64,000 nucleotides of DNA from Pseudomonas sp. BN411. Its GTDB lineage: Bacteria > Pseudomonadota > Gammaproteobacteria > Pseudomonadales > Pseudomonadaceae. Positions 1,369-62,625 of the stretch are shown here, piece by piece. The stretch is taken from assembly GCF_029871235.1 (NCBI RefSeq), contig NZ_SSOM01000083.1, forward strand, positions 1 through 64,000, read 5' to 3'. Under the pieces are notes generated by a model. The model had not been told where the DNA came from, made no database searches, and saw only the letters and a program-made list of their open reading frames with translations. Made by a program: the position numbers and the translations under genes. Every line of letters starts with the position of its first letter. The stretch's first letter is position 1.

Positions 1369-1417
1369 GTCTTTACCTCGGTTACTTCAACGAATTGTTG
1401 TTATGCGTGGCCAGGCG

Positions 1418-2287: not shown

Positions 2288-2418
2288 GGCGGTCTCCAAT
2301 CATCGTTTTTATTGAAGTGGGCTTCAGCGCCGTGGCGCTGAAGTGCGGGCCACTATAAAAACGCGACAAAATGAAAGCCACGAATGGCATCGATTAATCG
2401 CATGCGCCATATGCATAA

Positions 2419-3750: not shown

Positions 3751-3782
3751 ATTTGTTACCTTTGTAGTTGTTGTTGGAGGGC

Positions 3783-11138: not shown

Positions 11139-11303
11139 GATCCAAGTCCCACTTGAGTAGCCACCTGGCCATTTGCCTGGCTATAGCTTTGGTGCCGGCA
11201 AGCCTGCGAAGGGTCAGAAGCTGGTAGAGAATCGATAAATTCGCTCGACCTGCTTCGCGCGCTCAACGTCGTTTGTGATCCCTTCGTTTGTGGTCCCGTA
11301 GGC

Positions 11304-12081: not shown

Positions 12082-12138
12082 GACTGTTCTCCTTGTTGTT
12101 ATCGATGCCAGGCGGCGCAACCGATGTGGAGAAGGAAA

Positions 12139-12894
12139 CTAGGGCAGTCCTCGTCGGCGACCGGAGTCAAGCATCACGGCAGATCCCGACATTGCAGTAG
12201 CTTCAGGAGCCAGCAGCATGCTGATAGCCCAGGCCACCTGCTCGGGCGTGGTCAAAGCACCAAGGGACGATTCCGCACGTATTTCCTCCAGCACAGCATC
12301 AACACTCACGCCTCGCTGCGCCGCACGGTCTGCCGCGACACGATGCAGTCGCTCGGTATCCGCGGGACCCGGGGCAACCAGATGGGAGGTAATGCCACGC
12401 GGGCCGTAAGCCAGACTGAGCTGCCGGTTGAGATTGGCAAGGGCTGCATTGGCGACTCCTGCCGCCGCCGCATAGGCACTAGGCTCGAAGCCATAGTGCC
12501 CACCAATGGCGACCAGGCGTGAACCTGGTTGCAGAAAGTCGTCTACTGCTCGCACCAGGCGCAACATGCCGCCAACCTTGATGTTAACTGCGGAGTTCAA
12601 CGCGCTTACCGAGGCATCCAGCACCCCTCCAGCAACTGCTACGCCAGGTCCATGGACGACCATGCGGACGGGGCAGTTCAGGGAAGTTCGAATGACTTCG
12701 ATTGCACTGTCGTCTCCGATATCAGCTTCACAAGGTCTGACCTGTGAATATCGATCCGCTAGCGAATTGAGGCTTTCGCTGCTGCGAGCCACGGCGATGA
12801 TATCGAGGCCACTGGCACATAGCCTTGAGACGATGGCTTGTCCGAAAGCACCTGTGGCGCCGACGATTACCGCGACTTCATTGGTCGAATTCAT
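12139..12894 (-). CDS. SDR-fold protein with altered active site
   Basis: The 251-residue protein has the Rossmann start VAVIVGATGAFGQAIV and the family-like C-terminal segment GITSHLVAPGPADTE. The catalytic residues of classical short-chain dehydrogenases are not all present. The Ser region reads VAIGGHYGFE and the YxxxK motif reads YAAAA, so the Ser and Lys are missing. The NNAG motif is replaced by HGPG. The ATG at 12894 has GGAG 7 bases upstream. It lies 55 bases downstream of mhpE in the meta operon. It may bind NAD(P) without acting as an ordinary reductase, or use other residues; the function is unknown. Confidence 0.75.
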   Translation of the reverse strand: MNSTNEVAVIVGATGAFGQAIVSRLCASGLDIIAVARSSESLNSLADRYSQVRPCEADIGDDSAIEVIRTSLNCPVRMVVHGPGVAVAGGVLDASVSALNSAVNIKVGGMLRLVRAVDDFLQPGSRLVAIGGHYGFEPSAYAAAAGVANAALANLNRQLSLAYGPRGITSHLVAPGPADTERLHRVAADRAAQRGVSVDAVLEEIRAESSLGALTTPEQVAWAISMLLAPEATAMSGSAVMLDSGRRRGLP

Positions 12895-12949
12895 GAGCAC
12901 TCCGCTACTCGAGAAAACGCCGAGCAGATACTTCTGCTCGGCGGACGCA

Positions 12950-13999
12950 TCAGGCGCTCTTGAGCAAGCCACGCTCCTTGGCCATCGTCATCGCAGTATC
13001 GAGGATCATGTCTTCCTGACCACCGATCATCTTCTTGCGGCCAAGCTCAACCAGAATGTCGCGCGCCGAAACGCCGAAGCGTTCTGCCGCTCGTTTCGCA
13101 TGCAGCAGGAAGGTCGAATACACGCCGGCGTAACCCAGCGTCAGAGACTCGCGATCAACACGCACCAGGTGATCCATCATGGGAACGATGATGTCCTCGG
13201 CCACATCCATCAGCTTGAACAGGTCCACGCCGGTGTCGATGCCCATGCGCTCGCAAACAGCGGCGAATACCTCAAGAGGAGTGTTGCCAGCCCCCGCTCC
13301 CAGCCCAGCTACCGAACCGTCGATCCGGGTGGCGCCAGCTTCAATGGCTGCAATGGAATTCGCGACGCCCATGCCCAGGTTGTGGTGCCCGTGGAACCCG
13401 ATCTCGGTTTCGGGATTGAGCACATCACGAAGAGCCTCGACCCGTGCCTTGACGTCCTCCGGCAGCATGTATCCGGCCGAGTCAGTGACGTAAACGGTCT
13501 GCGCCCCATAGGACTCCATCAATTTCCCCTGCTGGGCGATGCCTGCAGGATCGTTGAGGTGGGCCATCATCAGGAATCCGGTAGTGTCCATTCCCAGCTT
13601 TCGAGCGAAGGCGATGTGTTGCGGAGAGGTGTCTGCCTCGGTGCAATGAGTGGCCACGTGAACGCTGCGTGCGCCGCAATCGTAGGCGGACTCGAGTTCC
13701 TTCATCGTGCCGAGACCTGGGATCAGCAGTACCGAGACTTTCGCCTGGGTCATCCGAGATGCGACAGCGCTGATGTATTCCTCATTGCTGTGCAGGGCGA
13801 AGCCATGCTGCAGCGAGTTCCCACCGAGACCGCCGCCGTGGGTCACCTGGATGTACGGAATGCCGGAGTCATCCATTGCAGTGGCAACCTTGATCATCTG
13901 ATCGACGCTGATCTGCTCGCGCTTGGCGTGCATGCCGTCACGCAGGCACATGTCGTGGAGAATGACCTTGCGGCCTTTGAGGCTGATGGGCTGACTCAT
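12950..13999 (-). CDS. mhpE: 4-hydroxy-2-oxovalerate aldolase
   Basis: This 349-residue enzyme (MhpE/DmpG/XylK) splits 4-hydroxy-2-oxovalerate into pyruvate and acetaldehyde. It shows the DRE-TIM metallolyase start [16 protein letters not shown] with the metal-binding Asp, and the [14 protein letters not shown] segment carrying the metal-binding histidines. The C-terminal domain that contacts the dehydrogenase is present. The ATG overlaps the mhpF stop codon by one base (TAATG), fitting the channelled aldolase-dehydrogenase complex known for this family. It belongs to the dmpC-led minus-strand operon. Confidence 0.95.
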
Positions 14000-14913
14000 T
14001 ATGCGACCTCCACAGTGGGCAACTGGAGCTTTCCGGCAAGGATTTCTTCGGCGAACATTTCCGCTGTGCGCGTCGCGGCCGCGGTCATGATGTCGAGGTT
14101 TCCAGCGTAAGTCGGCAGGTAGTCACCAAGCCCTGCAACCTCGAGGAACACTGAGACCTTGTTGCCATCGAAGAGCGGGCCATTGACCAGCCGGTAGCCC
14201 GGAACATACTTCTGCACCTCGCCGATCATCTGCAGAATCGACGCGGTCACGCGCTCTTGGTCAGGCTCATCGTCGGTCAGGCAGTAGATCGTGTTGCGCA
14301 TGATCAACGGCGGCTCAGCCGGGTTGATGATGGCCAGGGCCTTACCCTTGCGCGCACCACCGACTGCCTCGATAGCGCTGGAGGTCGTGTAGGTGAACTC
14401 ATCCAGATTCGCGCGGGTACCTGGCCCTACGGACTTGGACGACAGGCTAGCGACGATCTCCGCATAACCCACGCTTTGGATACGTGAAACGGCATTGACG
14501 ATGGGAATGGTTGCCTGGCCGGCACACGAAATCATGTTGACGTTCGCTACCTGTTTCTGGGTGTGCTCGCTCAGGTTCACCGGGGGCACGCACAGCGGAC
14601 CGATAGCAGCCGGCGTCAGGTCGATCATCAGAACACCCAGCGCATTGAGCTTGCGGCTGTTCTCGGCGTGCACATAGGCACTGGTAGCGTCGAAGGCGAT
14701 CTGGATATTGTCCTCCAGAACGTGGGGCAGCAGACCGTCGACACCTTCCGAGGTCGTCTTCAAGCCCATGTCTCGAGCTCGTTTAAGACCTTCTGACTCC
14801 GGGTCGATACCTACCATCCAGACCGGCTCAAGCACCGGGCTGCGCATGATCTTGTAGATCAAATCGGTACCGATGTTGCCCGAGCCGATCAACGCACAAC
14901 GGATCTTCTTCAT
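13999..14913 (-). CDS. mhpF: Acetaldehyde dehydrogenase (acylating), catalytic copy
   Basis: The 304-residue protein (MhpF/DmpF/XylQ) turns acetaldehyde, NAD+ and CoA into acetyl-CoA. It has the nucleotide loop IGSGNIG and the nucleophile Cys130 in [11 protein letters not shown]. The ATG at 14913 overlaps the 4-OT stop as ATGA; a longer in-frame start would overlap the tautomerase gene extensively and is rejected. It is followed with a one-base overlap by mhpE, its partner in the bifunctional complex. It differs from the paralogue at 10233-11138 by keeping the catalytic cysteine. Confidence 0.95.
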
Positions 14914-15119
14914 TTCGCCTGCCCCTGCAGCGCATCGCGCTGCATCTTGTTCAAACCAGCGACATAGAACTCGTCGTGGCGGTGTTCGGTAATCAGGATC
15001 CGGACCGTGTCCGGGTTGCATGGAAGGCTCTCGCTAACAGCCTTGGTCACAGCTGCAGCGACGCGGCTTTTCTGCTCGGCGGTGCGCCCCTCGACGAGGT
15101 GCATTTCGATAATGGGCAT
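14910..15119 (-). CDS. xylH: 4-oxalocrotonate tautomerase
   Basis: The 69-residue protein begins [17 protein letters not shown]. It has the catalytic Pro1 after Met removal, Arg11 in the EGR segment and an Arg in VRILITE matching Arg39 of the Pseudomonas TOL enzyme. 4-OT converts 2-hydroxymuconate (enol) into 2-oxo-3-hexenedioate in the oxalocrotonate branch. The protein is a few residues longer at the C-terminus than the 62-residue TOL enzyme. A GGAG motif is 8 bases before the start, and the stop overlaps the mhpF start. Confidence 0.93.
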
Positions 15120-15136
15120 GACTTCTCCTGGAGGCC

Positions 15137-15940
15137 TTACTCGATAAAACGCATGGAAACGCTGCCCAGTTCCTGGAAGCGTGCAATGACGTTGTCGCCG
15201 GGTTTCACTGCGACGGCTTCGGTGATTCCACCACTCATCACAAAGCTGCCGGCTGGCAGCGTCTCTCCCAGTTCGGAAAGAATGTTGACCAGCATCGCCA
15301 CAGCCTCTGCCGGATGCCCGAGCACTGCTGCACTCGCTCCCATGCCGACGATTTCGCCGTTCTTCTCCATCACCACGCCCAGTGTGCGCAGGTCCAGTTC
15401 ATCGACCTTGCGGGCACGACCGCCGCCGACAAATCGGGCGGAGGAACCGTTGTCAGCGATCACGCTGGGAAGATCGAATTTGAAGCCGGAGAAGCGTGAA
15501 TCAATGATTTCCACTGCAGGCAACACATAGTCGGTGGCGGCCAGCACATCGGCGACAGTGCAATTCGGGCCTTCAAGTCCTTCCTTGAGGACAAAGGCAA
15601 CCTCGCACTCCACACGGGGATGGACCAAGTCGGAGGTCTTGATCTGCGAGTTCTCCGGACGCGCCATGCGGTCGGTCAGAAAACCGATGGAGGGCACGTT
15701 AACGCCCATCTGCTGCATCTTGGCCCTGGAGGTCAGTCCTGCCTTCCAGCCGACGAGACGATGCCCCTTCGCCTTGAAGCGGCGCAGCAACTCCAACTGC
15801 ACGGCGTAGCCGTCAGCAATCGACATCTGGGGGTATTCATCGGTCAATTTGCGAATCGAATAGGCGTGCGTCTGAGCCCCCTCGACACGCTCACAAAGAC
15901 GCACGATGTCCTCGCGGGACAGTGTCAGTTGTGCGCTCAT
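15137..15940 (-). CDS. dmpH: 4-oxalocrotonate decarboxylase
   Basis: The 267-residue protein decarboxylates 2-oxo-3-hexenedioate to 2-hydroxypenta-2,4-dienoate (DmpH/XylI/NahK). It belongs to the FAH-like hydratase/decarboxylase family and shows the metal-site segments HPRVECEVAFVL and EIIDSRFSGFKFDL. The GASAAVLGHPAEAVAML and GSFVMSGGITEAV segments are close to known decarboxylases and separate it from the hydratase encoded next to it. The ATG at 15940 has GGAGG upstream and overlaps the dmpE stop as ATGA. The two enzymes form a complex in known pathways, which the coupling supports. Confidence 0.92.
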   Translation of the reverse strand: MSAQLTLSREDIVRLCERVEGAQTHAYSIRKLTDEYPQMSIADGYAVQLELLRRFKAKGHRLVGWKAGLTSRAKMQQMGVNVPSIGFLTDRMARPENSQIKTSDLVHPRVECEVAFVLKEGLEGPNCTVADVLAATDYVLPAVEIIDSRFSGFKFDLPSVIADNGSSARFVGGGRARKVDELDLRTLGVVMEKNGEIVGMGASAAVLGHPAEAVAMLVNILSELGETLPAGSFVMSGGITEAVAVKPGDNVIARFQELGSVSMRFIE

Positions 15941-16734
15941 ACTGCACTCCTCCCGGTAAACTTCGCCCTGCAGCTGCCAAGACCACCCACGGTACATACC
16001 AGTTCGTCACCGTCGGCGATGGGTACCAGGGCAGATTGCGAGCCCGAAAGAATCACCTCTCCCGCTTTGAACGGAATCCCCAGCTCTCCCAAGGTGTTGG
16101 CCAACCAGGCGACCGCATTGGCTGGAGACCCTTGCACGGCAGCACCAACGCCGGTGGAGAACAGCTCGCCGTTCTTCTCCAGCACCATGCCGGCCAATGT
16201 CAGGTCGAGCTCTCGCGGATCACCTCTGTCATTCCCCAGCACATACACGCCACAGGAAGCGTTGTCCGCGACGGTGTCCTGGATCTTGATCTGCCAATCC
16301 GTGATGCGCGAATCGACAATCTCGAAGCACGGCACTACGTAATCAGTTGCCCGGATCACATCCATTGCGGTGATCCCCGGCCCAACCAGGTCATGCTTAA
16401 GAACGAAAGCGAGTTCGGCCTCGGCCTTCGGTTGGATGAGGGTACCAAGGTCAATCTCATCACCCTCCTGGTACACCATGCCGGAGGTGAGAATGCCGAA
16501 GTCCGGTTGAAAAACCCCGAGGAAGTCCTGAACAGGCTTGCTGGTGACGCCGATTTTCTTACCCACCACGGTCTCGCCGGCGGCAAGTCGACGCGCAACG
16601 TAACGCTGCTGAATGCGGTAAGCATCCTCGATGGTTATCTCGGGCTCACGCTGCAGTAACGGGGGAACTGTGCGACGAGAGACGAACGCTTCGTAGAGCT
16701 CGTCGCCGTATTGCTCGATCTTGTTGTCGTTCAT
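15937..16734 (-). CDS. dmpE: 2-oxopent-4-enoate (2-hydroxypentadienoate) hydratase
   Basis: The 265-residue protein (DmpE/XylJ/MhpD) adds water to 2-hydroxypenta-2,4-dienoate to give 4-hydroxy-2-oxovalerate. Diagnostic segments are GKKIGVTSK, QPKAEAELAFVL with metal-binding acidic residues, CFEIVDSRITDWQIKIQDTVADNASCG and AGEVILSGS. It lies between dmpC and dmpH in the minus-strand operon. The start has only a weak ribosome-binding site, and translation may depend on upstream dmpC. Its product feeds MhpE. Confidence 0.93.
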   Translation of the reverse strand: MNDNKIEQYGDELYEAFVSRRTVPPLLQREPEITIEDAYRIQQRYVARRLAAGETVVGKKIGVTSKPVQDFLGVFQPDFGILTSGMVYQEGDEIDLGTLIQPKAEAELAFVLKHDLVGPGITAMDVIRATDYVVPCFEIVDSRITDWQIKIQDTVADNASCGVYVLGNDRGDPRELDLTLAGMVLEKNGELFSTGVGAAVQGSPANAVAWLANTLGELGIPFKAGEVILSGSQSALVPIADGDELVCTVGGLGSCRAKFTGRSAV

Positions 16735-16794
16735 GGTTTTCTCACAGGACGGCGGAAGTCGGACGCCGCATGAAGCGGCGCCCTAAAAGGCGAT

Positions 16795-18255
16795 TTACAG
16801 CTTCACGCACACGTTGCGTGTCTCGGTGTAAAACTCCAGGGAGTGAACGCCACCTTCGCGACCGATTCCCGACTGCTTGGAACCGCCGAACGCAGTGCGC
16901 AGATCGCGGAGGAACCAGCTATTGATCCAGGTAATCCCTACATCGATACGCGCAGCCATGCGATGGGCGCGGGATAGGTCGCTCGTCCAGATGGTGGTAG
17001 ACAGGCCGTATTCATTGTCATTGGCCAGCGACACCACCTCGTTCTCACTGTCGAACGGGCGAATGTGGCAGCAGGGGCCGAAGATCTCCTCGCGCACTAC
17101 CGCAGCGTTGTCCGGCAGCCCCGTCCAGATAGTGGGCTGAACCCACGAGCCCTCGGCCAACTCACCGGGCATATCAGGCACACCACCGCCAGTTACCACC
17201 GTGGCCCCCTCCTCCACCGCCTTGCGGTAGTAGGAAAGCACCTTGCTGCGGTGCTCCTGGCTGATCAACGGACCATAGGTCGTGGCGTGATCTTCAGGCC
17301 GACCGTATTTCACGCCCTCTGCCTTAACCTTCAGTGCCTGAACGAAGCGCTCAAAAATCGGACGTTCGACGTAAACGCGCTCGGTACCCAGGCAGACCTG
17401 TCCGGAATTGAGGAAGGACGAACGGAAAATCCCATCCACTGCCGCATCGAAATCGGCATCGGCGAATACGATTCCTGCGTTCTTCCCACCCAACTCGAAT
17501 GACACATCTCGCATGCCTTCGGCAGCGGCCTTCATGATTGCTGTGCCTGTGCGCGTTTCACCGGTAAAGGTGATGGCGTCGATGCCAGGATGCTGAGTAA
17601 TGAACTCGCCCGCGGAATCCGGACCGAAACCGTGCAATACGTTGTACACCCCCTTGGGGATGCCTACGGTGTTCATCACTTCACCGAGAAGAGTTGCTGT
17701 GAGCGGAGATTCTTCGGAAGGCTTGACCAGTACGGTATTACCGCATGCCAGCGCCGGGCCGACCTTCCAGGTCATCAGCAGGAAGGGCGCGTTCCATGGG
17801 CAAATCACTCCAATTACGCCCTTCGGCACACGCATGGAGTAGTTGAGCGCGCCGCGACCATCCGGGGTATCCATCCGGAAAGACTCACTGGCGACATTCT
17901 TGATTACATCGGCGAAAACCTTGAAGTTGGCCGCGCCACGAGGAATGAAGGCATGCCGCATGACATGTGCCGGCTGCCCGGTGTCGGCCATTTCAGCTTC
18001 GACAAAGTCATCGAAGCGGCGGGTGATCTCGTTAGCCACGGCATGCAGCATGTCGACACGCTGCTCGGTGGTCAGGCCACCCCATTCGCCATGCAAGGCA
18101 CTGCGTGCAGACTTTACGGCGCTATCCACTTCCGCACGGCCCGCTTCGGAAATCGAAGCGATCACACGGTTGTCTACCGGCGAACGCTTGTCGAAGCGTT
18201 TGCCGCTGGCAGCGGCGACGAATTCGCCCGCGATGAAGTTATCGATATTGCGCAT
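16795..18255 (-). CDS. dmpC: 2-hydroxymuconic semialdehyde dehydrogenase
   Basis: This 486-residue aldehyde dehydrogenase (DmpC/XylG) oxidises the ring-cleavage product 2-hydroxymuconic semialdehyde to 2-hydroxymuconate with NAD+. It has the general-base Glu in FELGGKNAG, the catalytic Cys in NSGQVCLGTE, and the XylG-like segments CPWNAPFLLMTWKVGPALACG and WFLRDLRTAFGGSKQSG. GGAG precedes the ATG. It is the first gene of the minus-strand meta operon, with a 442-base upstream gap that holds a LysR-type dyad at 18368. No semialdehyde hydrolase (XylF) is present in the window, so this dehydrogenase is the visible entry to the lower pathway. Confidence 0.93.
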   Translation of the reverse strand: MRNIDNFIAGEFVAAASGKRFDKRSPVDNRVIASISEAGRAEVDSAVKSARSALHGEWGGLTTEQRVDMLHAVANEITRRFDDFVEAEMADTGQPAHVMRHAFIPRGAANFKVFADVIKNVASESFRMDTPDGRGALNYSMRVPKGVIGVICPWNAPFLLMTWKVGPALACGNTVLVKPSEESPLTATLLGEVMNTVGIPKGVYNVLHGFGPDSAGEFITQHPGIDAITFTGETRTGTAIMKAAAEGMRDVSFELGGKNAGIVFADADFDAAVDGIFRSSFLNSGQVCLGTERVYVERPIFERFVQALKVKAEGVKYGRPEDHATTYGPLISQEHRSKVLSYYRKAVEEGATVVTGGGVPDMPGELAEGSWVQPTIWTGLPDNAAVVREEIFGPCCHIRPFDSENEVVSLANDNEYGLSTTIWTSDLSRAHRMAARIDVGITWINSWFLRDLRTAFGGSKQSGIGREGGVHSLEFYTETRNVCVKL

Positions 18256-18697
18256 GATCGCTCCGCACTCTTGTCCTTAGGTGGTCCGCCGGAAGGGCGA
18301 ACCAGACTGTTTACTGAGTCTAGGGAGCGGATTCGATACCGACTAATACTTTATTCGTTCCTCGCCAATACCAATCGGGTATCTCTTTGGACAGCGAACA
18401 ACCTTGCGGCAAGGCGCCTTAAAGCAGCAATAGAAATGGGTCAGAGTTGCTGCGCGTATATCGCGAAAAGGACCGCAGCGGAGTCGATTGTCCTGGGCTC
18501 CTCGCCACGCGACTCCCGAAGACATCGCGGAGCGCAGTTCTCCGCGACGGTTCACACTTAGTTGAGTACTGGCCGCCCTTCACTCCAAGAAACTTCTCTC
18601 AAAGCTCGAACAGCGGAGAATCTAGACGGCCAATAATGAGGAGAAACGCTGCGTCAGGTATCGAGCGGTATCGCCCCCCTGCCCGATACCCGAGAGG
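18256..18697. other. Promoter region between dmpC and the thiolase gene, no gene seen
   Basis: This 442-base gap holds no convincing coding frame. It carries the ATACC-N5-GGTAT dyad at 18368-18382 with half-sites on the dmpC side. Near the thiolase end there is a second group: GGTAT at 18657 and 18667, and a GGTATCG/CGATACC inverted repeat at 18667-18690 just beyond the thiolase stop. The latter has no T run, so it is not an obvious intrinsic terminator. The region probably contains the dmpC operon promoter. Confidence 0.6.
18336..18382 (-). promoter_or_regulatory. LysR-type (BenM/CatM-like) operator upstream of dmpC
   Basis: The dyad ATACC-AATCG-GGTAT at 18368-18382 fits ATAC-N7-GTAT, the site known for BenM and CatM, and the LysR T-N11-A rule. 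Toward dmpC, further half-sites occur 22 bases away (ATACT at 18346) and 32 bases away (ATACC at 18336). The same 22- and 32-base steps occur beside the dyad upstream of xylE at 25260. The dyad lies 112 bases before the dmpC start. Binding is inferred. Confidence 0.65.
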
Positions 18698-25168: not shown

Positions 25169-25528
25169 ACACGCTGTGCCGCATGCGGACAAGGCCACGG
25201 CACAAGGAAAACCGCCAAGAGCAGCCCCTTGGGGCGACTAAAGAGGGCGAGCCATAGACATACCAAATAGGTATGAGGCAGACGAAAACAAGGTATTAGA
25301 CGGTATTTACAACGGTAGTTAGGGTATCTACTGACTGCCAAATGGAGCTAGCCGACATACAGACTGGAGCAGCATCGCCGCGCTCCATGACCTCTGTAAG
25401 TGGTACCTCCGGTACATGACCCAGACGTGTTTAGCCACCGTCGGGTCGAACAGCTAGGCCAGAAGACGGGCCCACGCCCGGGGGCAACAGCCAGCCCTCT
25501 CTAGAACAAACACAATCAGGAGCGAAAC
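25169..25528. other. 360-base gap between vanB and xylE, regulatory
   Basis: No gene is supported here. The central part carries the ATACC-N5-GGTAT dyad at 25260 and further GGTAT half-sites up to 25327, described separately. The last 200 bases before xylE include AGGAGCG just upstream of its ATG. xylE thus appears to have its own promoter rather than depending only on vanAB transcription. Confidence 0.6.
25260..25327 (+). promoter_or_regulatory. LysR-type operator with GGTAT half-site array upstream of xylE
   Basis: The perfect dyad ATACC-AAATA-GGTAT spans 25260-25274. GGTAT repeats follow at 25292, 25302 and 25323, with a GGTAG at 25314, in steps of 22, 10, 12 and 9 bases. This places them on about the same face of the helix. 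ATAC-N7-GTAT is the known BenM/CatM binding form. The first two extra half-sites repeat the spacing seen upstream of dmpC. The dyad ends 254 bases before the xylE ATG. Confidence 0.65.
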
Positions 25529-26464
25529 ATGGCAATGACAGGCGTTCTGCGCCCCGGGCACGTTCAACTACGTGTCATGGACCTTGAGGCGGGCGTACAC
25601 CACTACCGCGATGTTCTCGGCATGCTAGAGACCGGGCGGGATTCCCAGGGTCGCATCTATCTCAAATGCCGCGACGAGTTTGATCATCACAGCGTGATAC
25701 TGCGTGAGGCCGATCGCGCAGGTATGGATTTCGTCGGCTTCAAGGTGCTGAATGTCGCTACCCTGAATGACCTTGAAGGCAAGCTGCAGGCCTACGGGGT
25801 AGACACGCATCGCATCGCCGCCGGCGACCTGCTAGAGACCGGTGAACGCGTACGCTTCACCACCCCCAGTGGTCACGAAGTCGAGTTGTATGCCGAGAAG
25901 ACTTTCGTCGGCAACGGGTGCGGTGAGGTCAATCCGACTCCGTGGGACCCTACGGCTACTCACGGCATCTCACCACTGCGGATGGACCATCTGCTGCTGT
26001 ACGGACCGAACGTACCAGAGACGCTCAAGCTGTTCATCGATGTGCTCGGGTTCACGCTGGTCGAGCGCGTACTTGGCCCAGATGGCGAGACCAACATCAT
26101 TGGGTTCCTCAGCTGCTCGATCAAATCCCATGACATCGCCTTCGGTCATTACGAGGAGCCAGGGAAGCTCCACCATGTGTCTTTCCTGATGGAAAGCTGG
26201 GAACAGGTATTGCGCGCCGGCGACATCATGGCGATGAACAACGTGCCTGTGGACATCGGACCAACCCGACATGGCGTGACTCGTGGCAGGACCATTTATG
26301 CATGGGATCCGTCCGGCAATCGCTTCGAGACTTTCAAGGAAGATCGCCAGCCCTATCCGGACCATCCACCGCTGACTTGGACTTTCGACGGTATCGGTGA
26401 TGGCGGCGGTCTCGACTACGTGCAGCGCAAGCTTCACGAAACTTTTCTCACTGTGGTGACCTGA
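25529..26464 (+). CDS. xylE: Catechol 2,3-dioxygenase, extradiol type I (XylE-like)
   Basis: The 311-residue two-domain vicinal-oxygen-chelate protein cleaves catechol next to its hydroxyls, giving 2-hydroxymuconic semialdehyde. The Fe(II) ligands are visible as His154 (RMDHLLLYG), His216 (KLHHVSFL) and Glu267 (GNRFETF), matching His153, His214 and Glu265 of the TOL enzyme. AGGAGCG precedes the ATG. It is physically apart from the dmpC operon but shares the same dyad motif upstream. The XylT-type ferredoxin at 11304 is its probable reactivator. A T-rich terminator follows. Confidence 0.94.
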   Translation: MAMTGVLRPGHVQLRVMDLEAGVHHYRDVLGMLETGRDSQGRIYLKCRDEFDHHSVILREADRAGMDFVGFKVLNVATLNDLEGKLQAYGVDTHRIAAGDLLETGERVRFTTPSGHEVELYAEKTFVGNGCGEVNPTPWDPTATHGISPLRMDHLLLYGPNVPETLKLFIDVLGFTLVERVLGPDGETNIIGFLSCSIKSHDIAFGHYEEPGKLHHVSFLMESWEQVLRAGDIMAMNNVPVDIGPTRHGVTRGRTIYAWDPSGNRFETFKEDRQPYPDHPPLTWTFDGIGDGGGLDYVQRKLHETFLTVVT

Positions 26465-46484: not shown

Positions 46485-47021
46485 TTACAGGTAAGATTTA
46501 TCACAGGAAATTCTTTTACCATTCCACTCAAAATTCACTTTCTGTATTAATGGCAAATCATGCCCATATAGCAGCCACAAATCCTCATACGTCTTTGATG
46601 AGCCTTGATGCACCAGATTAGGACTCAGTTCCGCCATTGGAGCCAAAACATATGCGCTCTCAACCATCCCCGGACGAGGCAAATGCACATGACCGAATAA
46701 TCCACACAAGTCATCAAATAGCAAAATATCAATATCAAGGCGCCGAGAGCACTTAAGAAGATCATTATTAGCACGACCAAAGTCACTTTCTATAGCACGG
46801 ACACTCGAAACGACTTGAGCGAGAGATAACTCCGTCAAGACTTTGACCACCATATTCAAAAAAGGAGGACCGTCGAATCCTACAGCCTCGCTAAAATAGA
46901 CTGATGAACTCTCGAGAATATTAAAAACCCCCTCAAGACGGTCCAATCCTGCAGAGAGAGACTCCCATGGCAGGACGTTAGATCCAAGACCTAAATAAAC
47001 GGTATGCAATTCATCCGTCAT
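46485..47021 (-). CDS. folK: 2-amino-4-hydroxy-6-hydroxymethyldihydropteridine pyrophosphokinase FolK
   Basis: The 178-residue protein transfers pyrophosphate from ATP to hydroxymethyl-dihydropterin in folate synthesis. It shows VYLGLGSN at the start, the FLNMVVKVLTELS segment and the signature SRRLDIDILLFDD, followed by LPRPGM. The ATG at 47021 lies 9 bases after the folD stop. A folK in a demethylation operon is unusual and may raise the THF pool that accepts the methyl groups. Most bacteria keep folK near folP or panB, so this is probably an extra copy. Confidence 0.9.
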   Translation of the reverse strand: MTDELHTVYLGLGSNVLPWESLSAGLDRLEGVFNILESSSVYFSEAVGFDGPPFLNMVVKVLTELSLAQVVSSVRAIESDFGRANNDLLKCSRRLDIDILLFDDLCGLFGHVHLPRPGMVESAYVLAPMAELSPNLVHQGSSKTYEDLWLLYGHDLPLIQKVNFEWNGKRISCDKSYL

Positions 47022-47029
47022 TATATAGA

Positions 47030-47899
47030 TCAATCACCAAGAGGCTTGGCAAGTCTCTTTGCTGCGGTAAGCGTGTTATACATAAGGCAAGCAATTGTCA
47101 TCGGGCCAACCCCACCAGGAACCGGTGTAAGCGCACCCGCAACTTCTGCCACGCCGTCATAGTCAACATCACCGCACAACAAGCTTTTACCACCCTCTTC
47201 GATGCGATTTATACCGACATCAATGACCGTAGCTCCCGGTTTCACCCAGTCAGCCTTGATCAACTTCGGGCGACCAACGGCAGCAACTAAAATATCCGCC
47301 TGACGGCAAACCTCTGCCAAGTCTTTGGACTTTGAATGAGCGATGGTAACTGTGCAATTTTTTTTCAGCAGCAGGCTAGCCATCGGTTTTCCGACGATAT
47401 TAGAACGCCCTACAATTACTGCACGTAAACCATCCAGCGACCCAAGGGTGTCCTCAAGTAGCATCAAAGACCCGAGAGGAGTGCATGGTATCATCCCCTC
47501 CTTGCCGACAGAGAGTGCACCTACGTTCTCAATATGGAAGCCATCGACATCCTTGGCTGGATCGATCGCTGCAATCACCGCTTCTTCATCAATTTGACGA
47601 GGAAGTGGCAACTGAACCAGAACACCATGAACGTCTCTGTCCTTATTGAGGCTATCAATCAACTCCAGTAGCTCAGCCTGTCCAGTAGTAACAGGCAATC
47701 GGTATTCTAGGGAGCGGATGCCAACCTCTTCACAGCGCCTCACTTTATTACGCACATAAACATGACTCGCAGGATCATCTCCTACCAATACAACTGCAAT
47801 GCTTGGATAGAGCCCAGTCGATACTTTTAGCGCCGCAATCTCAACCTGGAGTGAAGCGCATAATTTATCGGCAAACAGCTTGCCATCAATGACTTTCAT
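47030..47899 (-). CDS. folD: Methylenetetrahydrofolate dehydrogenase/cyclohydrolase FolD (copy 2)
   Basis: The 289-residue bifunctional enzyme shows [54 protein letters not shown] and [14 protein letters not shown], all typical FolD segments with the NADP-binding loop. It turns methylene-THF into 10-formyl-THF, the substrate of the PurU encoded just upstream. It is 14 bases after purU in the same operon. The window edge carries the start of a second folD. Confidence 0.95.
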
Positions 47900-47913
47900 T
47901 TGCGCCTCAAAAC

Positions 47914-48789
47914 TTAACTGCCAAGGAAAATAACAGTTTTATTGTCGTCCAAGAAGACACGGCGCTCGATATGCCACTTGACCGCCGAAGCCAATGCATA
48001 ACACTCGTTCTCTCGACCCACACGTGCCAGTTGCTCAGGCTTATAGTTATGATCAACTCGAGCCACGACTTGCTCGATAATTGGACCCTCGTCCAGATCG
48101 GAAGTCACATAATGAGCAGTTGCGCCAATTAGCTTAACTCCGCGCTCGAAAGCCTGATGGTATGGGCGGGCACCTTTGAATCCAGGCAGGAACGAGTGGT
48201 GAATATTAATGCACTTACCTGACAATTCGCGACTTAGATTGTCGGAAAGAATTTGCATGTAACGCGCAAGAATTACCAACTCAGCATCAGTTTCGCTAAC
48301 GATGTCGAGCAAGCGAGCTTCTTGAGCAGGTTTATTATCCTTATCAACAGGCAGATGAACAAATCGAATACCTTCGCGCTCAACCATACCTCGCAGATCT
48401 TGATGATTGGAGATGACGGCAACAATCTCCAAGTTAAGCTCACCTTTTTTGTAGCGATAGAGCAGATCATTCAGGCAGTGATCAAACTTCGAAACCATGA
48501 TTACCGTTTTAACAGGCTCAACGGCATCATAGAACCGCCATGTCATGCCATATTTTTCAGAAACCTCAACAAATTCTTCGCGCATCTGGCCAATGGAAAT
48601 ATCTTGGCTTTCCATCCTGAACACGGCGCGCATGAAGAACTTTTCAGTTGTTTCATCATCAAACTGTTCAACCGCACAAATATAGCAACCTCTGTCTGCA
48701 AGGAATGTAGAAATTGCCGCCAAAATTCCTGTCCCGGCCTTGCAACTAACATTCAATATAAAAGTTGATTCTTGAGATTTATAAGTCAT
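47914..48789 (-). CDS. purU: Formyltetrahydrofolate deformylase PurU (copy 2)
   Basis: The 291-residue protein has an ACT domain (about residues 8-85) and a hydrolase domain with [22 protein letters not shown] and [13 protein letters not shown]. It is clearly related to copy 1 at 1418 but far from identical, so the two modules were not created by a recent duplication. It releases formate and regenerates THF. It lies between the epoxide hydrolase-like gene and folD. Confidence 0.94.
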
Positions 48790-48857
48790 GCAATCACCTA
48801 AATTTTATGTTTTATCAGAACCACAGCCATCCTACCCACACATAGCTGCGATTACAT

Positions 48858-50012
48858 TCAAGAGCCAAAAGAAAAAGCTGAACTCCGCAAACCGGAGAAG
48901 AATTCACGCAAATCCTCAGCCACCAAGACCGGCTCCTCCCACTCCAGGAAATGTCCACCAGATTCGCATACGGAATAACTGACAACGTTATAAAACCGGT
49001 CAGCCCACTCTCGCGGTGCATTCGGAAACATATCTTTGGAGCCATGATAGAAAGCGACTGGGACAGCTCTACAATCCTGACTGGAATAGTCTTCCCTACA
49101 GAATTCGTAATAGATTCGTATAGATGAAGCTATCGTCTGCGTGACCCAGTAGAGAGTGATATTGGTCAGGAGCTCATCTTTGGTAAATCGCCTAGACAAA
49201 TCCCCATCCACTCCGGCCCAACGTTGAAATTTCTCTAGAATCCATGCCAGCAAACCCACTGGCGAGTCATTAAGCCCATAAGCAAGAGTTTGAGGCTTTG
49301 TCATATGCTGGAGGCAGTAGGACATCTCTTCTTGCCATACCAAGTTATTTTTCTTGATATATTCCGCCTCTGCTTCCGACGCATTAGCTGGCACTTCACA
49401 CGGTCCAGGCATGATAATTTCTGCCAGATGCGCGCCTATTACTCTCTCTGCATAATCACTGCACAACCAGTCTGTAATCAGCTTCCCTATGTCCCCCCCG
49501 CGAACCCCATATCGTTGATAACCAAGAACGCTAGTCATCAACAGATTCAAAGCACGAGCTGCGCGCCTGGTTCCATATCCACTTACTGCCGGCTTTCCTG
49601 AGAAGCCATACCCTGGCAACGATGGAATCACAATATCGAAAGAGAGGCTTTCGCTATTTGTATTAATGATTTGCTGTGCCAGTTGGAGGAGCTGTACAAA
49701 ACTACTCGGCCAACCATGCAGCAGCAGCAAAGGAACAGCATTAGGAAATTGGCTTTTGTGGTGTATGAAGTGCACCTCAACACCATCGATCTCTGACGTA
49801 TAGTGATTCCAGCTATTCAGAATAGCTTCTTGCTTACGCCAATCAAAATCGTCACGCCAGTAGCTTATATACTCTCTAACAACATCAATATCGGCACCAT
49901 ATAACCATTGCGACTCCTCAATCGCATCTATCCATCTAGTGCCAATTAGCCGTTGCTTCAAGTCATTTAGTACTACTTGAGGCACGCAAATTTCATAGGG
50001 CGTCGGATTCAT
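48858..50012 (-). CDS. Epoxide hydrolase-family alpha/beta hydrolase (EHN domain)
   Basis: The 384-residue protein begins with an epoxide hydrolase N-terminal domain (VPQVVLNDLKQRLIGTRW) and continues with an alpha/beta hydrolase core. HGWPSSFVQ forms the oxyanion segment, GGDIGKLI carries the candidate Asp nucleophile (usually GGDWG), and GGHFLEWEEP supplies the His. The ATG at 50012 has GGGGAG upstream; longer starts would add 45 unsupported residues. It sits between the demethylase and purU in the operon, where it may act on an epoxide or ester form of the substrate. Confidence 0.85.
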   Translation of the reverse strand: MNPTPYEICVPQVVLNDLKQRLIGTRWIDAIEESQWLYGADIDVVREYISYWRDDFDWRKQEAILNSWNHYTSEIDGVEVHFIHHKSQFPNAVPLLLLHGWPSSFVQLLQLAQQIINTNSESLSFDIVIPSLPGYGFSGKPAVSGYGTRRAARALNLLMTSVLGYQRYGVRGGDIGKLITDWLCSDYAERVIGAHLAEIIMPGPCEVPANASEAEAEYIKKNNLVWQEEMSYCLQHMTKPQTLAYGLNDSPVGLLAWILEKFQRWAGVDGDLSRRFTKDELLTNITLYWVTQTIASSIRIYYEFCREDYSSQDCRAVPVAFYHGSKDMFPNAPREWADRFYNVVSYSVCESGGHFLEWEEPVLVAEDLREFFSGLRSSAFSFGS

Positions 50013-50173
50013 GAAGAACTCCCCCCACAGCTTCCAATATGCAAGCAGACATAATTGGAATGAAATACAACCCGCAGCTGGAAAAACGGTGGCATAAATG
50101 CCACCGTCTTGGATTTCATATAAAGATCTTCTGACCCTAGAATTCAACTCGACCTAGAACCAGAGTATCTCTA

Positions 50174-51556
50174 TCAATCCATCGTACCAACGGGGATCAG
50201 GCTGGTATCTACCTTCTGGTTCCGGCATTCATTGAAGTAGGGATACCGAGCTACTTTAGCGCGCACTTTCTTCTGCCGAGTACCGGGCTCCCCCCAGAGA
50301 ACCCAGACCTCGGTGCCTTCGCTCAGGTACTCTTCATCAATGGAGCAGAGCGAAATCATTTCCCGATAGAACCAGGACACCATCCGACCGCTACTGACAC
50401 CTACTTGCTCGCCCTTATCATTCAAAACCCAATCGGCTGGATAGATACCGCCAAATGCCAGATCTTCGGGACTAGAAATATCTTTATAAGGGACTGGATC
50501 GGCCAATTGCGAGCGGTGGATATCAAGGATATCCTCTTTATTCCACTCAAGAGTTACCATCTGGCGCGATGACTTTGCCTTTAGCTCTTCAATAGCCTTC
50601 TTTCCAACAAACTCATGATCCATATTAATGGTCTTACCCCAACCCAACTCAATCGGGTTTCGGTAACGAGCTGCGAAATCTTGACCGACGCTGCCAGACA
50701 AAGAATCTTTAACAATTTCGGGATCGCAGAGGAACCCAATTTCGCGCTCACGGAGCCATGCAGCAAATTCTTTGTGCTCAAACCAAGGAAGGGGGAAATC
50801 GAGATAGGCTTGTGGGAATCCATTCTCCCAATGGGTCATATTGTAAGCGGGGGTACCCAATCGCTTCAAACCGTACTTTACGCCAGCCTTGAGAATCTGT
50901 TCATAAACAGGAATGGCATCCTCTACATTCCCATGAACCTCATAAGCCAGGGAGCCAGCCATACCGACGCGCAGGATCATTACATCTCGACCTGCAATCT
51001 TACTCATTCGATGGTGAATGAATTTGATGTCGTGCAAGTTCTCACCACTAGCTGCATCTAGTACCTGCAAGCAGGTCGGACCACCCAACTGGAACATGAA
51101 CACTTTGCCGGTAACATCCTCACCCTGGACGTCAAGGTCGCTATTTTCTACGCAATATTGCAACCAAGGATTCATCCAGTAAGTGATGTAATCCTCTTCG
51201 CGGCGAACCAGCAAACCATCGACCATGATCCGCCCTTGCTCGTCCAGCATAATGCCGTGCTTAGCGAATCCAACTGGGAACTTTTCAAAAGAATTCCCGC
51301 AGTATTTCTTGAGAAACTCAATAGAGTCCGGCCCCCAGAAGCGGTAAGTCGGGGAGGGATTGAGATTTGCGTGAATGTAACTAGAGTCATGCCAAGAAAG
51401 AGATTCATCTCTCCATCCGGTGTATTCAAGCGGCTGCAAGCCAGCAAGAATAGGATTGGAAGCATAGGATACGAAATGCACCATATGACTAGTGACAGAC
51501 CGTTCATCGACAGGAATTACAGGGCTGGGACCGAATGTCTTTGTATGCTTAGTCAT
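50174..51556 (-). CDS. THF-dependent aromatic O-demethylase, LigM/DesA-like (copy 2)
   Basis: The 460-residue protein belongs to the same GcvT-fold family as the gene at 109 and is near the length of Sphingobium LigM. It shows YTGWRDESLSWHDSSYI, IKFIHHRMSKIAGRDVMILRVGMAGSLAYEVHG and IELGWGKTINMDHEFVG. It should move a methyl ether group to THF. It is first in an operon with epoxide hydrolase, purU, folD and folK, which would oxidise the methyl carbon to formate. The methyl-THF reductase step (MetF) is not encoded here. An ATAC-N7-GTAT dyad lies 163 bases upstream. The ATG at 51556 is preferred to an upstream in-frame start. Confidence 0.8.
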   Translation of the reverse strand: MTKHTKTFGPSPVIPVDERSVTSHMVHFVSYASNPILAGLQPLEYTGWRDESLSWHDSSYIHANLNPSPTYRFWGPDSIEFLKKYCGNSFEKFPVGFAKHGIMLDEQGRIMVDGLLVRREEDYITYWMNPWLQYCVENSDLDVQGEDVTGKVFMFQLGGPTCLQVLDAASGENLHDIKFIHHRMSKIAGRDVMILRVGMAGSLAYEVHGNVEDAIPVYEQILKAGVKYGLKRLGTPAYNMTHWENGFPQAYLDFPLPWFEHKEFAAWLREREIGFLCDPEIVKDSLSGSVGQDFAARYRNPIELGWGKTINMDHEFVGKKAIEELKAKSSRQMVTLEWNKEDILDIHRSQLADPVPYKDISSPEDLAFGGIYPADWVLNDKGEQVGVSSGRMVSWFYREMISLCSIDEEYLSEGTEVWVLWGEPGTRQKKVRAKVARYPYFNECRNQKVDTSLIPVGTMD

Positions 51557-51697
51557 AAAATTTCTCTTATTTTTTGCCAATAACTAAAGAAAGCCGCAGA
51601 ACCTACGGGCCGTACGTCTATGTGGTATGGTCTATAACTCAGCACCAATCTATGGGCCGCTTAGAAGTACGATATCCAGCGATGCTCGATATCTCCA

Positions 51698-51734
51698 ATA
51701 CCTTATTTCCCGCCGCCTCATACCAAAAAGGTAT
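51698..51734 (-). promoter_or_regulatory. LysR-type operator upstream of the copy-2 demethylase operon
   Basis: The dyad ATACC-AAAAA-GGTAT at 51720-51734 is a perfect ATAC-N7-GTAT. An ATACC half-site at 51698 lies exactly 22 bases nearer the gene, matching the spacing beside the dmpC and xylE dyads. The site links this operon to the meta-cleavage genes. Confidence 0.65.
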
Positions 51735-52222: not shown

Positions 52223-54253
52223 TCAGACACGAAATGCGCTTATAAGCTCCTTCAGCCGCGCCACCTGACCAGATAGATAGCGGCTAGCCTGCTCAGTCTG
52301 CATGGCACCTTCAGCAGTAAGTTCGCCGGCCTGATTGATCTCGACGATGTTCATGTCGATATCGTGAGCCACGGCGGTCTGCTGCTCTACGGCGGCGGCG
52401 ATCTGCTGGTTCTGATCAACGATCACGCCAACCGCGCTGAGTATGTTATCCAGCGCTTGCTGCACCTGACTCGACTGGCTGACCGTGCTTTCGACCATTT
52501 GATGGCTGCCGTTCATGGCGATCACGGTAGCGCCCACACCACCCTGCAGACGGACGATCATCTGCTCAATCTCCTCGGTGGACTGATGGGTGCGCTTAGC
52601 CAGGTTACGCACTTCATCGGCCACGACGGCGAAACCACGGCCCTGCTCGCCGGCCCGCGCTGCCTCGATGGCAGCGTTGAGCGCCAGCAGATTGGTCTGC
52701 CCAGCGATCTCCTTGATCACGTCCAGCACCTGGCTGATCGAGGCGCTGTCGGCGGCCAGTTGGTTGATCACACCCACCGACTGGTCGATCTCACTGGCCA
52801 GACGCTGGATACTGTCGACCTGCGACCTGACCATGGCACGGCCGCTCACGGTCTCCTCGTTGACGCTCTGTGCGCTACCCACTGCCGCGGCGGCGCTGCG
52901 CGCCACCTCCTGAGCGGTGGCGGACATCTCGTTCATTGCGGTGGCCACCTGCTCGATCTGCCCGCGTTGGGCACTCACTGCCTGGCTGCTCTCACCGGAC
53001 ACCAGTTCGACGCGGTCGGCCTGGCGCTCTACCTCAATGACGGTCTGGCCGACCAACTCGATCAGGTCGCGGATCTTCGCCACGGTGCTATTGAACACCG
53101 CGCCCAGCTCGCCCAGCTCGTCGCTGCTTTGCACGTTAACCTGCACCGTCATGTCGCCGCCAGCGACCTGGCCGAGAGTCACAGCAAACCCCTTGAGCGT
53201 GGCGAGAGTGGAAACGTAAAAGCCGCCGTAGAGGTAAACGATGGACAGGAACAGCACCATCAGGGCAACTACGAGTAGGATCATCTGCAGACGCTTCTGC
53301 TCCAGGCGGTGGCTCAGCTCCTGCTCTAGGAAACCAAGCACGCCATCGTTCAGCGCATAGGTCTTGTCGATGGCAGCGCTGGTCTCGTCGTAGAAGCCCA
53401 TCCAGGGAGTATTCAGGCTGTCAGCAGTAAGCAACTGCCCCTCAAGCACCTTGGCGATATCGGTCAAGCTACGGTGGCTGGCTTCGGCAACTCCGCCCAG
53501 GGCGCTTTTGGCCTGGACATTGCCCTCGAGTACGCCCTGCAGCTTGAAACCATATTCAGCATGCAGCTTTTCTAGCTCCAGTAGCAGATCGTCGAGCTTG
53601 GTGATGTCGGAAGCGCCGAGGATGCCCTGGCCCAGGGAGTAGGAGCCGAGGGCACGCCCCTTGCTGATGGCACGCGTTACCGGCTGGCTTGTGCTGGTTA
53701 ATAGCTCGCTGATCTGGCGTACGCTCAGATCACCGTCCTGACTGAGTCCGGACTCACTGGCAATGAGCTTGATGAACAACTCGGAGTTATCCAGCGCCTT
53801 GGTCACCAAGCTGGCCTTGCTGCGCAGGGATGATTCTGCTGCTACCGCGTCCAGAGTGGTCTTGATTACCTCACGCTGGTCATTGAACTCCTCGGTTTCC
53901 TGAGCATCGCTGCTAGGGGGTTCGAGCGCGCCCAAGGTCTCAGCGATGCCCTTCTCCAATGGAGTGATCAAGGCGATGATCGTCGGCGCGTGATCTGACT
54001 CGGCGAGCACAGCATTGATCTCGTAGAGGTCGCTGAGACGCTCCAGCTGTTGGCGCAGCTGCTGGCCCTGCTTGAGCAGCGCCAGGCTCTGCAGCTCGGT
54101 ACGCGTATCGACGAAAGCGTCATAGGACTCGCGCACCAGTAGATAGTTGGTGACCAGCATGGGCAGGAAGAACAGCACACTGATCAGACTGAACTTCATG
54201 CCGAAGCTCATGCGGTTCATCAGGTTGATGGCAGGGTACAACACGCTATTCAC
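52223..54253 (-). CDS. Methyl-accepting chemotaxis protein
   Basis: The 676-residue protein has a membrane segment near residues 15-40 ([20 protein letters not shown]), then a large helical periplasmic domain. A second membrane segment ([22 protein letters not shown]) leads to a HAMP domain and the cytoplasmic signalling tip [34 protein letters not shown] start at 54253 with AGGAGA upstream is preferred to a longer ATG frame without a ribosome site. The ligand is unknown. The secreted unknown protein encoded just upstream is a possible partner. Confidence 0.88.
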
Positions 54254-54419
54254 TAGACGTCTCCTGTTGCCGTGATTGTTGTACGCCAAGCGGCAGTCGA
54301 CTGACCTGTGGATACGGCAAGGCAGCGGTATTTTGCTTCTAGGGATCGGCTGAAAGGCCGCGTCTTTCTGGCGGACTTCAGCATCCATTAGCCGGGAGAA
54401 ATGTCGATGCTATGGCAAC

Positions 54420-55160
54420 TCAAGGAGCGGTTTGTCCGGCCAACTCATCGAGCTTTGCGATGACCGATCCTAGGTAAAACGCCGCGCTCCCGGACACCGC
54501 CTTGTAGTTGTTACCGAGCAGATGACCACGGGCGAAACGGAACACACGATGCTGGTCAGTCAGAACCTTGGCATGCTCAGGCAGCTGCACTTTCAGCGCC
54601 TCGAACAGTTCATTGATTCGCTGGTCCTTGGCCTCGGCATCTTGAGCCTCATAGGCCACCGAGTACTCACCGACCACTCGCGTGATGCGAGCCTGATTAG
54701 AGATCAACAAATCGCCAATGCGCTCGCTCAACTCCCGCAGCATCAAGCGAGCTTGGGAGAGCTCGGGGCTCGCGTCTGCATAAGCACTGGCAACAGCTTT
54801 CTTCATCTCGGCATCTGCATCCATCAGGCCTATGAGAAGGTCCGGATAGCTGACCGAATGATCCGTGGCTCCAGATTCCAGTTGGGGAAGGAGCGCGCTC
54901 ATCTCCGCGACGGGGCGCTGCAGCGATTGCGGATAACCCAACGCCTCCACCAATTGTTGTAGGTCCTGGTAGCTCTTCTGATAGGCATCAAGACTACGCG
55001 GATCGCTCAAACGATTTTCGGCCCCGTAGTAGATCAGGGCATGGGTGGCGATTAGCAGTGACGACGAACGGACCTTTTGGTACAGGGCCTGCGTATTCGC
55101 CTGCGCGCATGCAATGGCAGGCACGATGAGAATCAGAAGAACAGCAATGCAAATCCGCAT
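54420..55160 (-). CDS. Secreted helical protein of unknown function
   Basis: The 246-residue precursor has a clear signal peptide (MRICIAVLLILIVPAIACA), then an almost wholly helical mature part rich in Ala, Leu and Glu. It has no recognised domain. The start at 55160 is chosen to place the signal peptide at the N-terminus; the ribosome site is poor and an in-frame ATG at 55211 is possible. It lies upstream of the chemoreceptor gene in the same direction, and the helical pattern may form a four-helix bundle like chemoreceptor sensory domains. A periplasmic ligand carrier for that receptor is a hypothesis. Confidence 0.65.
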   Translation of the reverse strand: MRICIAVLLILIVPAIACAQANTQALYQKVRSSSLLIATHALIYYGAENRLSDPRSLDAYQKSYQDLQQLVEALGYPQSLQRPVAEMSALLPQLESGATDHSVSYPDLLIGLMDADAEMKKAVASAYADASPELSQARLMLRELSERIGDLLISNQARITRVVGEYSVAYEAQDAEAKDQRINELFEALKVQLPEHAKVLTDQHRVFRFARGHLLGNNYKAVSGSAAFYLGSVIAKLDELAGQTAP

Positions 55161-55330
55161 AGGGTGAATACCACCCCGTTTTGGAGGGGGCAGAGTATTG
55201 GTGCGATCCATGTCAGGCGGGCCTTTCTTGTTTTTTATTGTGGGCGACGTGTCGTCAGAACGAGAGGATGACGCGGTTTGAAAAGCCCGCAGCGCGCGTC
55301 CATCCACCTCACTCGCGCTGCGGGAAACGT

Positions 55331-57751: not shown

Positions 57752-57807
57752 GGGATGCCCCTAATCTGACGAAGTGAATGACCGTGTATGGCGGAGACGA
57801 TGCCGCC

Positions 57808-58905: not shown

Positions 58906-58980
58906 ATTCACTCCAACAGCAAAAAACATTCATAAGCAGGCCTGGAGCGACGTATGTCGCCCCGGCCCCATTAGCGAGAA

Positions 58981-60339: not shown

Positions 60340-60347
60340 GATCGGCC

Positions 60348-61991: not shown

Positions 61992-62003
61992 TTCAACCCT
62001 CAT

Positions 62004-62588: not shown

Positions 62589-62625
62589 ATACTATAAAAA
62601 CGGCCGAGCATTACCTAAAAGGTAT
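62589..62625. promoter_or_regulatory. LysR-type operator before the BenM-like regulator gene
   Basis: TTACC-TAAAA-GGTAT at 62611-62625 differs by one base from the ATACC-N5-GGTAT dyads before dmpC, xylE and the copy-2 demethylase operon. An ATACT half-site at 62589 is again 22 bases away, as at dmpC. The dyad ends 38 bases before the LysR ATG, a normal place for LysR autoregulation. Confidence 0.6.

Follow-up and report, generated by a model that had tools for sequence, protein, structure and literature searches.

Does a single regulator govern the catabolic genes on this contig of Pseudomonas sp. BN411, and does it join O-demethylation to catechol cleavage? The whole stretch of DNA that was analysed (64,000 nucleotides, referred to as the window) had been predicted from its letters to carry a BenM-type dyad, ATACC-N5-GGTAT, upstream of three catabolic transcription units that would belong to one regulon.

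Occurrence of the dyad in the window and the genome

Our search confirmed that the window contains exactly three exact copies of ATACC-N5-GGTAT, at 18368, 25260 and 51720, and one copy with a single mismatch at 62611, TTACCTAAAAGGTAT. With up to two mismatches allowed, the ten-base dyad matched 23 places in the window, versus 11.1 expected. The 0.06 chance copies estimated originally correspond to 64000/4^10, a value that assumes equal base use. The looser form ATAC-N7-GTAT matched exactly at four window positions, where 100 shuffles predict 0.22. One of these, 9416, falls within a FadL-like ORF and was absent from the original prediction.

The exact dyad was found at six places in the whole genome (6,373,962 bases), three of them in the window, which makes up about 1% of the genome, while the reversed pattern, used as a control, was found at none. 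Two of the three copies outside the window are located inside long ORFs on contig C50. The remaining one (C56:44118) has a muconate cycloisomerase gene (TIGR02534, above cut-off) on one side and a LysR gene on the other, presumably catB and catR. Genome-wide, the dyad is a weak to modest signal when taken alone, and it was rejected as sole proof of a regulon because of these six places. Frequent copies across the genome had been named beforehand as evidence against the regulon. This was found by half for the dyad alone, with three of the six copies outside the window and one of these at catB, but not for the longer element described below.

Gene units at the sites

The sites are associated with the following gene units:

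12139..18255, minus strand: dmpC, dmpE, dmpH, dmpF and dmpG with an SDR gene, a meta-cleavage run, putative operon from strand and spacing
25529..26464, plus strand: xylE, catechol 2,3-dioxygenase (TIGR03211, above cut-off)
46485..51580, minus strand: O-demethylase gene run, putative operon
52223..62003, minus strand: genes for DUF1302, DUF1329, BNR/YCF48-like, MMPL transporter, unknown (54420) and methyl-accepting chemotaxis (MCP) proteins
62664..63560, plus strand: LysR-type regulator, AphT-like, with 38 bases between the dyad and its ATG

The DUF1302/DUF1329/BNR/MMPL/MCP genes are divergent from the LysR gene. Between the 62611 site and DUF1302, about 580 bp (62004-62584) are without an obvious gene; the corresponding distance is about 140-225 bp in several relatives, as judged from tblastn edges. 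The long gap counts against the regulation proposed below. A second, diverged DUF1302/DUF1329/BNR/MMPL set was observed on the same contig, at 11229-18385 of locus L133 (G000:C53:80001-100000). Other regulators are encoded near the window genes, one AraC-like (20735) and one MalT-like (28770), and may act here too.

The long element and the predicted promoters

Read toward the gene, the sites consist of the dyad, 17 bases (N17) and the half-site RGTATT. Across the genome, dyad-N17-RGTATT was found at three places without mismatch and at a fourth with one mismatch. All of them are window sites; the next-best matches, with up to three mismatches allowed, had two. Thirty order-1 Markov sequences, each 64 kb long and scanned with a TA prefilter, contained no match at up to two mismatches and three at three mismatches, the same number as the window itself.

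The half-sites described originally at the xylE, dmpC and demethylase sites were all recovered in the direction of the gene. GGTAT is at +22, +32 and again +53 at xylE, AGTAT is at +22 and GGTAT at +32 at dmpC, and the demethylase site has GGTAT at +22 only. At 62611, where no half-site had been mentioned, AGTAT is at +22 and no GGTAT is at +32. All four sites have TA...T at index 60 (TAGGGT, TAGACT, TATCGT and TAGTTT). The elements are as follows:

25260..25274, plus strand: dyad upstream of xylE, ATACCAAATAGGTAT, recognition-site-like
25292..25306, plus strand: xylE half-sites GGTAT at +22 (25292) and +32 (25302), with a further GGTAT at 25323
25297..25325, plus strand: predicted xylE promoter, -35 TAGACG (25297-25302), 17 bp, -10 TAGGGT (25320-25325)
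18368..18382, minus strand: dyad upstream of the dmpC operon, read toward dmpC ATACCCGATTGGTAT
18317..18350, minus strand: dmpC half-sites AGTAT at +22 (18350-18346) and GGTAT at +32 (18340-18336), predicted -10 TAGACT (18322-18317)
51720..51734, minus strand: dyad upstream of the O-demethylase operon, read toward the gene ATACCTTTTTGGTAT
51669..51702, minus strand: demethylase half-site GGTAT at +22 (51702-51698), predicted -10 TATCGT (51674-51669), remainder weak
62611..62625, minus strand: one-mismatch dyad in the gap between the LysR gene and DUF1302, read toward DUF1302 ATACCTTTTAGGTAA
62560..62593, minus strand: 62611 half-site AGTAT at +22 (62593-62589), predicted promoter with -35 TGGACG (62588-62583) and -10 TAGTTT (62565-62560)

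The xylE promoter is predicted from the register of the site consensus together with TAnnnT at index 60 in other species.

A weight matrix was built from 25 non-redundant sites found in other species. The window and its identical twin in genome G007 were excluded, as were one reverse-orientation match (L038) and near-duplicates (at least 80% identical). The training sites were chosen by a consensus written after the window and its relatives had been viewed, and this choice therefore bears on the dyad and +22 columns; the columns outside them, the -10 register included, are independent of it. TAnnnT was at index 60 in 21 of the 25 training sites and at index 61 in the other four. This register marks the predicted -10 box, and a putative -35 box read at index 37-42 gives a spacer of 17.

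The matrix ranked the four sites first in the window, with scores of 60.2 for 62611, 43.0 for dmpC, 40.4 for xylE and 21.4 for the demethylase. The next score in the window was 2.0, the best in 126,900 bases elsewhere in the genome was 0.8, and the largest in 50 random 64-kb sequences was 15.3. Without the dyad columns, 62611 (41.2) and dmpC (28.3) were above the largest random maximum of 22.2, xylE (21.7) was just under it, and the demethylase site scored 0.9 versus a random mean maximum of 11.2. When the conserved blocks (index 30-45 and 60-65) were scored alone, 62611, dmpC and xylE reached 25.0-27.5, whereas the demethylase site, at 11.1, ranked eighth in the window and did not attain the mean maximum of the random sequences (13.7). 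The demethylase site ranks weakest of the four. Since its part outside the dyad is at chance level, its support consists of the dyad, the +22 half-site and the -10 register.

The regulator encoded at 62664

The 62664 protein contains the Pfam domains HTH_1 and LysR_substrate. Against the PDB it scored 212 bits with 1ixc, which we take to be CbnR, 168 with 7w06, 166 with BenM and 145 with CatM. These domains and structural relatives identify it as a LysR-type protein of the CatR/ClcR group. Its best NCBIfam match, AlsR, was below the cut-off (245 of 430 bits), as were BenM (171 of 600) and CatM (149 of 580); the CatR-like protein on C56 is also under the BenM and CatM cut-offs (243 and 210), which makes the cut-off test weak evidence. 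The term BenM-type fits the form of the half-sites but suits the regulator less well, given the higher 1ixc score and the AphT-like context, and BenM as the regulator's name was rejected on cut-offs and PDB scores. Because the gene content matches that of the AphT regulon, the protein would be better called AphT-like, a name based on gene context.

Twelve proteins of the genome, itself included, matched the 62664 protein at E<=1e-20, the nearest others being those on C55 and C56, both 40% identical. In a tree of 47 hand-picked rows, it grouped with orthologues from Pseudomonas, Xanthobacter and Zoogloeaceae (18 rows, 96/84), and the CatR-like C56 protein was in a separate clade (4 rows, 100/100).

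Conservation of the sites with the regulator

Among 398 genomes of the family, 18 had a match to the 62664 protein at E<=1e-70, and 14 of these had an orthologue of at least 67% identity and were counted as carriers. Two or more sites (up to two mismatches) were present in all 14 carriers, and any site in 15 of the 384 other genomes. A site before dmpC was found in 10 of the 12 carriers outside the island (G064, G069, G088, G167, G215, G026, G041, G074, G171 and G238); the carriers G095 and G102 had no dmpC site at two mismatches. The orthologues of at least 67% identity keep a site near their own gene, facing DUF1302, DUF1329 or an unread gene. These counts lend good support to the original proposal of a shared LysR regulon, probably governed by the 62664 protein. 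The sequence of the sites, their rarity, their register and their conservation with the regulator were observed directly.

Sites outside the carriers were also observed. Two non-carriers (G048 and G192) have a site before dmpC, their best matches to the 62664 protein being just 42% and 29% identical. Sites were found before dmpC in Xanthobacter (L056), before xylE in Methylibium (L059) and, with the half-site at +21, before a xylE-hbpS-dmpC-dmpE-dmpH run in a Nitrosomonadales MAG (L061). None of the five carriers checked (L167, L168, L171, L173 and L176) had a site within 400 bp upstream of xylE, the best matches having 9-10 mismatches. The xylE site thus draws support from L059 and L061 and from no carrier outside the island. 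Within one set of 80 loci, the dyad scan covered L049-L066. Seven more distant relatives (L044, L045, L046, L048, L064, L065 and L066; 42-53% identity) had no dyad at up to one mismatch.

G157, of genus group g9, has a site between a LysR gene and a chlorocatechol 1,2-dioxygenase gene; a muconate-cycloisomerase gene is also present beside the LysR gene, whose protein groups with CbnR in the tree. Seven other g9 genomes and G130 have a site by a LysR gene of 35-37% identity. The g9 loci L153-L155 and L157-L160 show the same operator layout, with ATACG-N5-GGTAT or a close variant as the dyad, followed by AGCATTGGAC at +22 and GGTAT at +32. For the sites of G053, G073, G101, G120, G126, G173 and G177, a CatR/catB identity was rejected, as no catB was present in the 3-kb loci; in L153, the one locus of the seven that was scanned for it, the divergent gene encodes a Mem_trans transporter. 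The site matches in G061, G072, G274 and G032 had no LysR neighbour among the genes searched in their 3-kb loci. Plasmid searches returned no close copy, with LysR proteins at 56.5% or less and demethylases below 60% in all 69 records, and the three plasmid DNA matches were short or weak.

The O-demethylase operon

The run downstream of the 51720 site contains the following genes:

50174-51580, minus strand: GCV_T-type (LigM/DesA-like) O-demethylase
48858-50147, minus strand: epoxide-hydrolase-like protein (EHN and alpha/beta hydrolase)
47914-48789, minus strand: PurU
47030-47899, minus strand: FolD
46485-47033, minus strand: HPPK/FolK

The 50174 demethylase is below the cut-offs for LigM (183 of 580 bits) and DesA (186 of 800 bits), and the nearest solved structure is that of a vanillate/3-O-methylgallate O-demethylase. 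The presence of the epoxide-hydrolase-like gene suggests that the substrate may be something more than a simple methoxyphenol. A second O-demethylase/PurU set is located at 109-5054 of the window, with an aromatic-acid MFS transporter and a BsrA-like LysR gene, and has no dyad at up to one mismatch. A further GCV_T-type copy (G000:C34:5662) is 41% identical to the 50174 protein.

The G+C content is 0.47-0.48 over 44-52 kb. The window as a whole has 0.567, and five other stretches of the same genome have 0.61-0.66. The low value suggests a separate foreign origin for the demethylase operon. The demethylase and the site occur together only here and in the identical island of G007, at the same site spacing, and G007 is not an independent witness. 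Relatives of the demethylase at E<=1e-80 were present in 3 of the 398 family genomes, and no independent demethylase site was found among them; the third genome (G302) has a relative of 40% identity without the site. At E<=1e-110, BN411 itself was the single genome with a relative among 340 of the class.

Phenol hydroxylase (PF02332) is encoded on the contig of the sites in all 12 other carriers. It lies between two sites in ten of them (G026, G041, G064, G069, G074, G088, G167, G171, G215 and G238) and within about 25 kb of the sites in G095 and G102. In BN411 and G007 the sole phenol hydroxylase matches are on a different contig (C6 and C64, respectively).

The claim that O-demethylation is joined to catechol cleavage under one regulator agrees with the exact dyad and the +22 half-site, but the remainder of the site is poor and no independent species shares it. 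The link of the demethylase to the regulon is new and plausible, as yet unproven.

Comparison with known systems

The closest parallel is the AphT regulon of Comamonas testosteroni TA441 and further Betaproteobacteria, whose regulator is a LysR protein of the CatR/ClcR type. The available excerpts of Suvorova and Gelfand (PMC6449761) give AkACC-N5-GGTAT as the motif of the CatR/ClcR group and describe a predicted AphT regulon in Betaproteobacteria with meta-cleavage, COG1028, DUF1302, PF07044, COG1033 and COG4447 genes, to which Azoarcus BH72 adds a methyl-accepting chemotaxis gene; the aph lower-pathway genes of TA441 are described there as being controlled by both AphR and AphT. Our locus shares with this regulon, as excerpted, a LysR gene divergent from its target, a T-N11-A dyad close to the CatR/ClcR motif upstream of meta-pathway genes (here dmpC and xylE), meta-cleavage genes with an SDR gene, and the DUF1302, PF07044, COG1033, COG4447 and MCP genes. 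The COGs were matched here by domain type, DUF1329 being equated with PF07044, MMPL with COG1033 and BNR with COG4447. The locus differs in its Pseudomonas host, in the location of phenol hydroxylase on C6, and in the site at a THF-type O-demethylase operon.

At PbenA and PcatB of Acinetobacter, BenM and CatM have a Site 1 of the form ATAC-N7-GTAT together with another site that overlaps the -35 region (PMC6628147, in excerpt), a layout like that of the window sites, where the -35 and -10 boxes so compared are predictions; the targets here are meta-cleavage and O-demethylation, not ben/cat. CatR at the catBC promoter of Pseudomonas likewise uses a repression site and an activation site next to the promoter (PMC9705993, in excerpt). 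The catB operator of BN411 has the same dyad as the window sites, but its TATTGGAC is one base nearer than the +22 of the window. In Sphingobium SYK-6, O-demethylation by LigM and DesA in vanillate and syringate catabolism is also regulated, by DesR (PMC6888825, in excerpt), which is of the MarR type, whereas the site here is of the LysR type. Among the titles and abstract openings of the literature matches listed, LysR control of a THF-dependent O-demethylase was not found.

Alternative explanations

It is very improbable that chance matching to a short palindrome accounts for all the dyads. The six copies in the genome are no more than the approximately six expected at equal base use, and two are inside ORFs, but the shuffle and Markov controls, the matrix and the conservation across species argue against this explanation; conservation contradicts it for dmpC and 62611, and least for 51720 and, across carriers, xylE. 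Recognition of the window dyads by the CatR-like protein of the same genome (C56:44168, beside catB), which would control or co-control the genes with cis,cis-muconate as the inducer, is unlikely to a lesser degree. In its favor, the exact dyad at C56:44118 is followed by TATATTGGAC, the catB site with one base inserted scores 20.4, like the 21.4 of the demethylase, and the two LysR proteins are 40% identical with similar recognition helices (QPPLSRQIQQLE and QPPLTRQIQQLE). The published group motifs are also alike, with cross-regulation suggested for MmlR and its homologues in the excerpted source (PMC6449761), and the dmpC site is present in G048 and G192, neither of which encodes a close orthologue of the 62664 protein. 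However, the catB site drops to -1.6 when the spacing is fixed, and the genome search at up to three mismatches did not recover it. The site type of the window tracks the 62664 orthologue over the 398 genomes, and the CatR-like protein falls in a separate clade.

For the demethylase dyad taken singly, an origin outside the regulon is possible, although we consider it doubtful: the dyad may be the site of another LysR protein, may have arrived with the foreign block, or may be a chance match. The low G+C over 44-52 kb, the score of the part outside the dyad, which is no better than chance (0.9; blocks 11.1), and the restriction of the site to the identical G007 island are in line with this. The exact dyad, the exact GGTATT at +22, TA...T at the -10 register and a full score above all 50 random maxima point the other way.

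Proposed regulation and its meaning

Taken together, the four sites are probably the operator-promoters of one LysR-type regulon under the AphT-like 62664 protein. By analogy with CatR and BenM, a LysR tetramer would hold the dyad as its recognition site, and with an inducer of the ring-cleavage type the second dimer would settle on the +22 half-site beside the -35 box. There it would assist RNA polymerase at promoters whose -10 box is TAnnnT and whose spacer is 17 bp; binding, activation and inducer are inferred. The 62611 dyad is located just before the ATG of the regulator's own gene, which fits autorepression. The regulon would comprise the dmpC meta-cleavage genes, xylE and the DUF1302/DUF1329/MMPL/MCP genes. 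The THF-type O-demethylase/PurU/FolD genes would be less certain members.

Tentatively, and at close to an even chance, the regulon may have swapped its upper pathway: phenol hydroxylase is gone from the cluster, and a low-G+C, foreign THF-type O-demethylase operon with one-carbon recycling genes would stand under the same LysR switch, such that a methoxy-aromatic is demethylated to a catechol and meta-cleaved as one response. Exchange of the upper pathway under a kept regulator is the simplest reading. Guaiacol as the methoxy-aromatic substrate is a guess from the catechol dioxygenase.

The regulon is mostly of a known kind in a new host, and the demethylase link is its new part. For a class predicted in Betaproteobacteria (PMC6449761), the locus offers a precise, testable operator consisting of the dyad, the +22 half-site, the -35 box, 17 bp and the -10 box. 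If the demethylase site works, a foreign lignin-monomer demethylase would have been wired into an existing catechol pathway.
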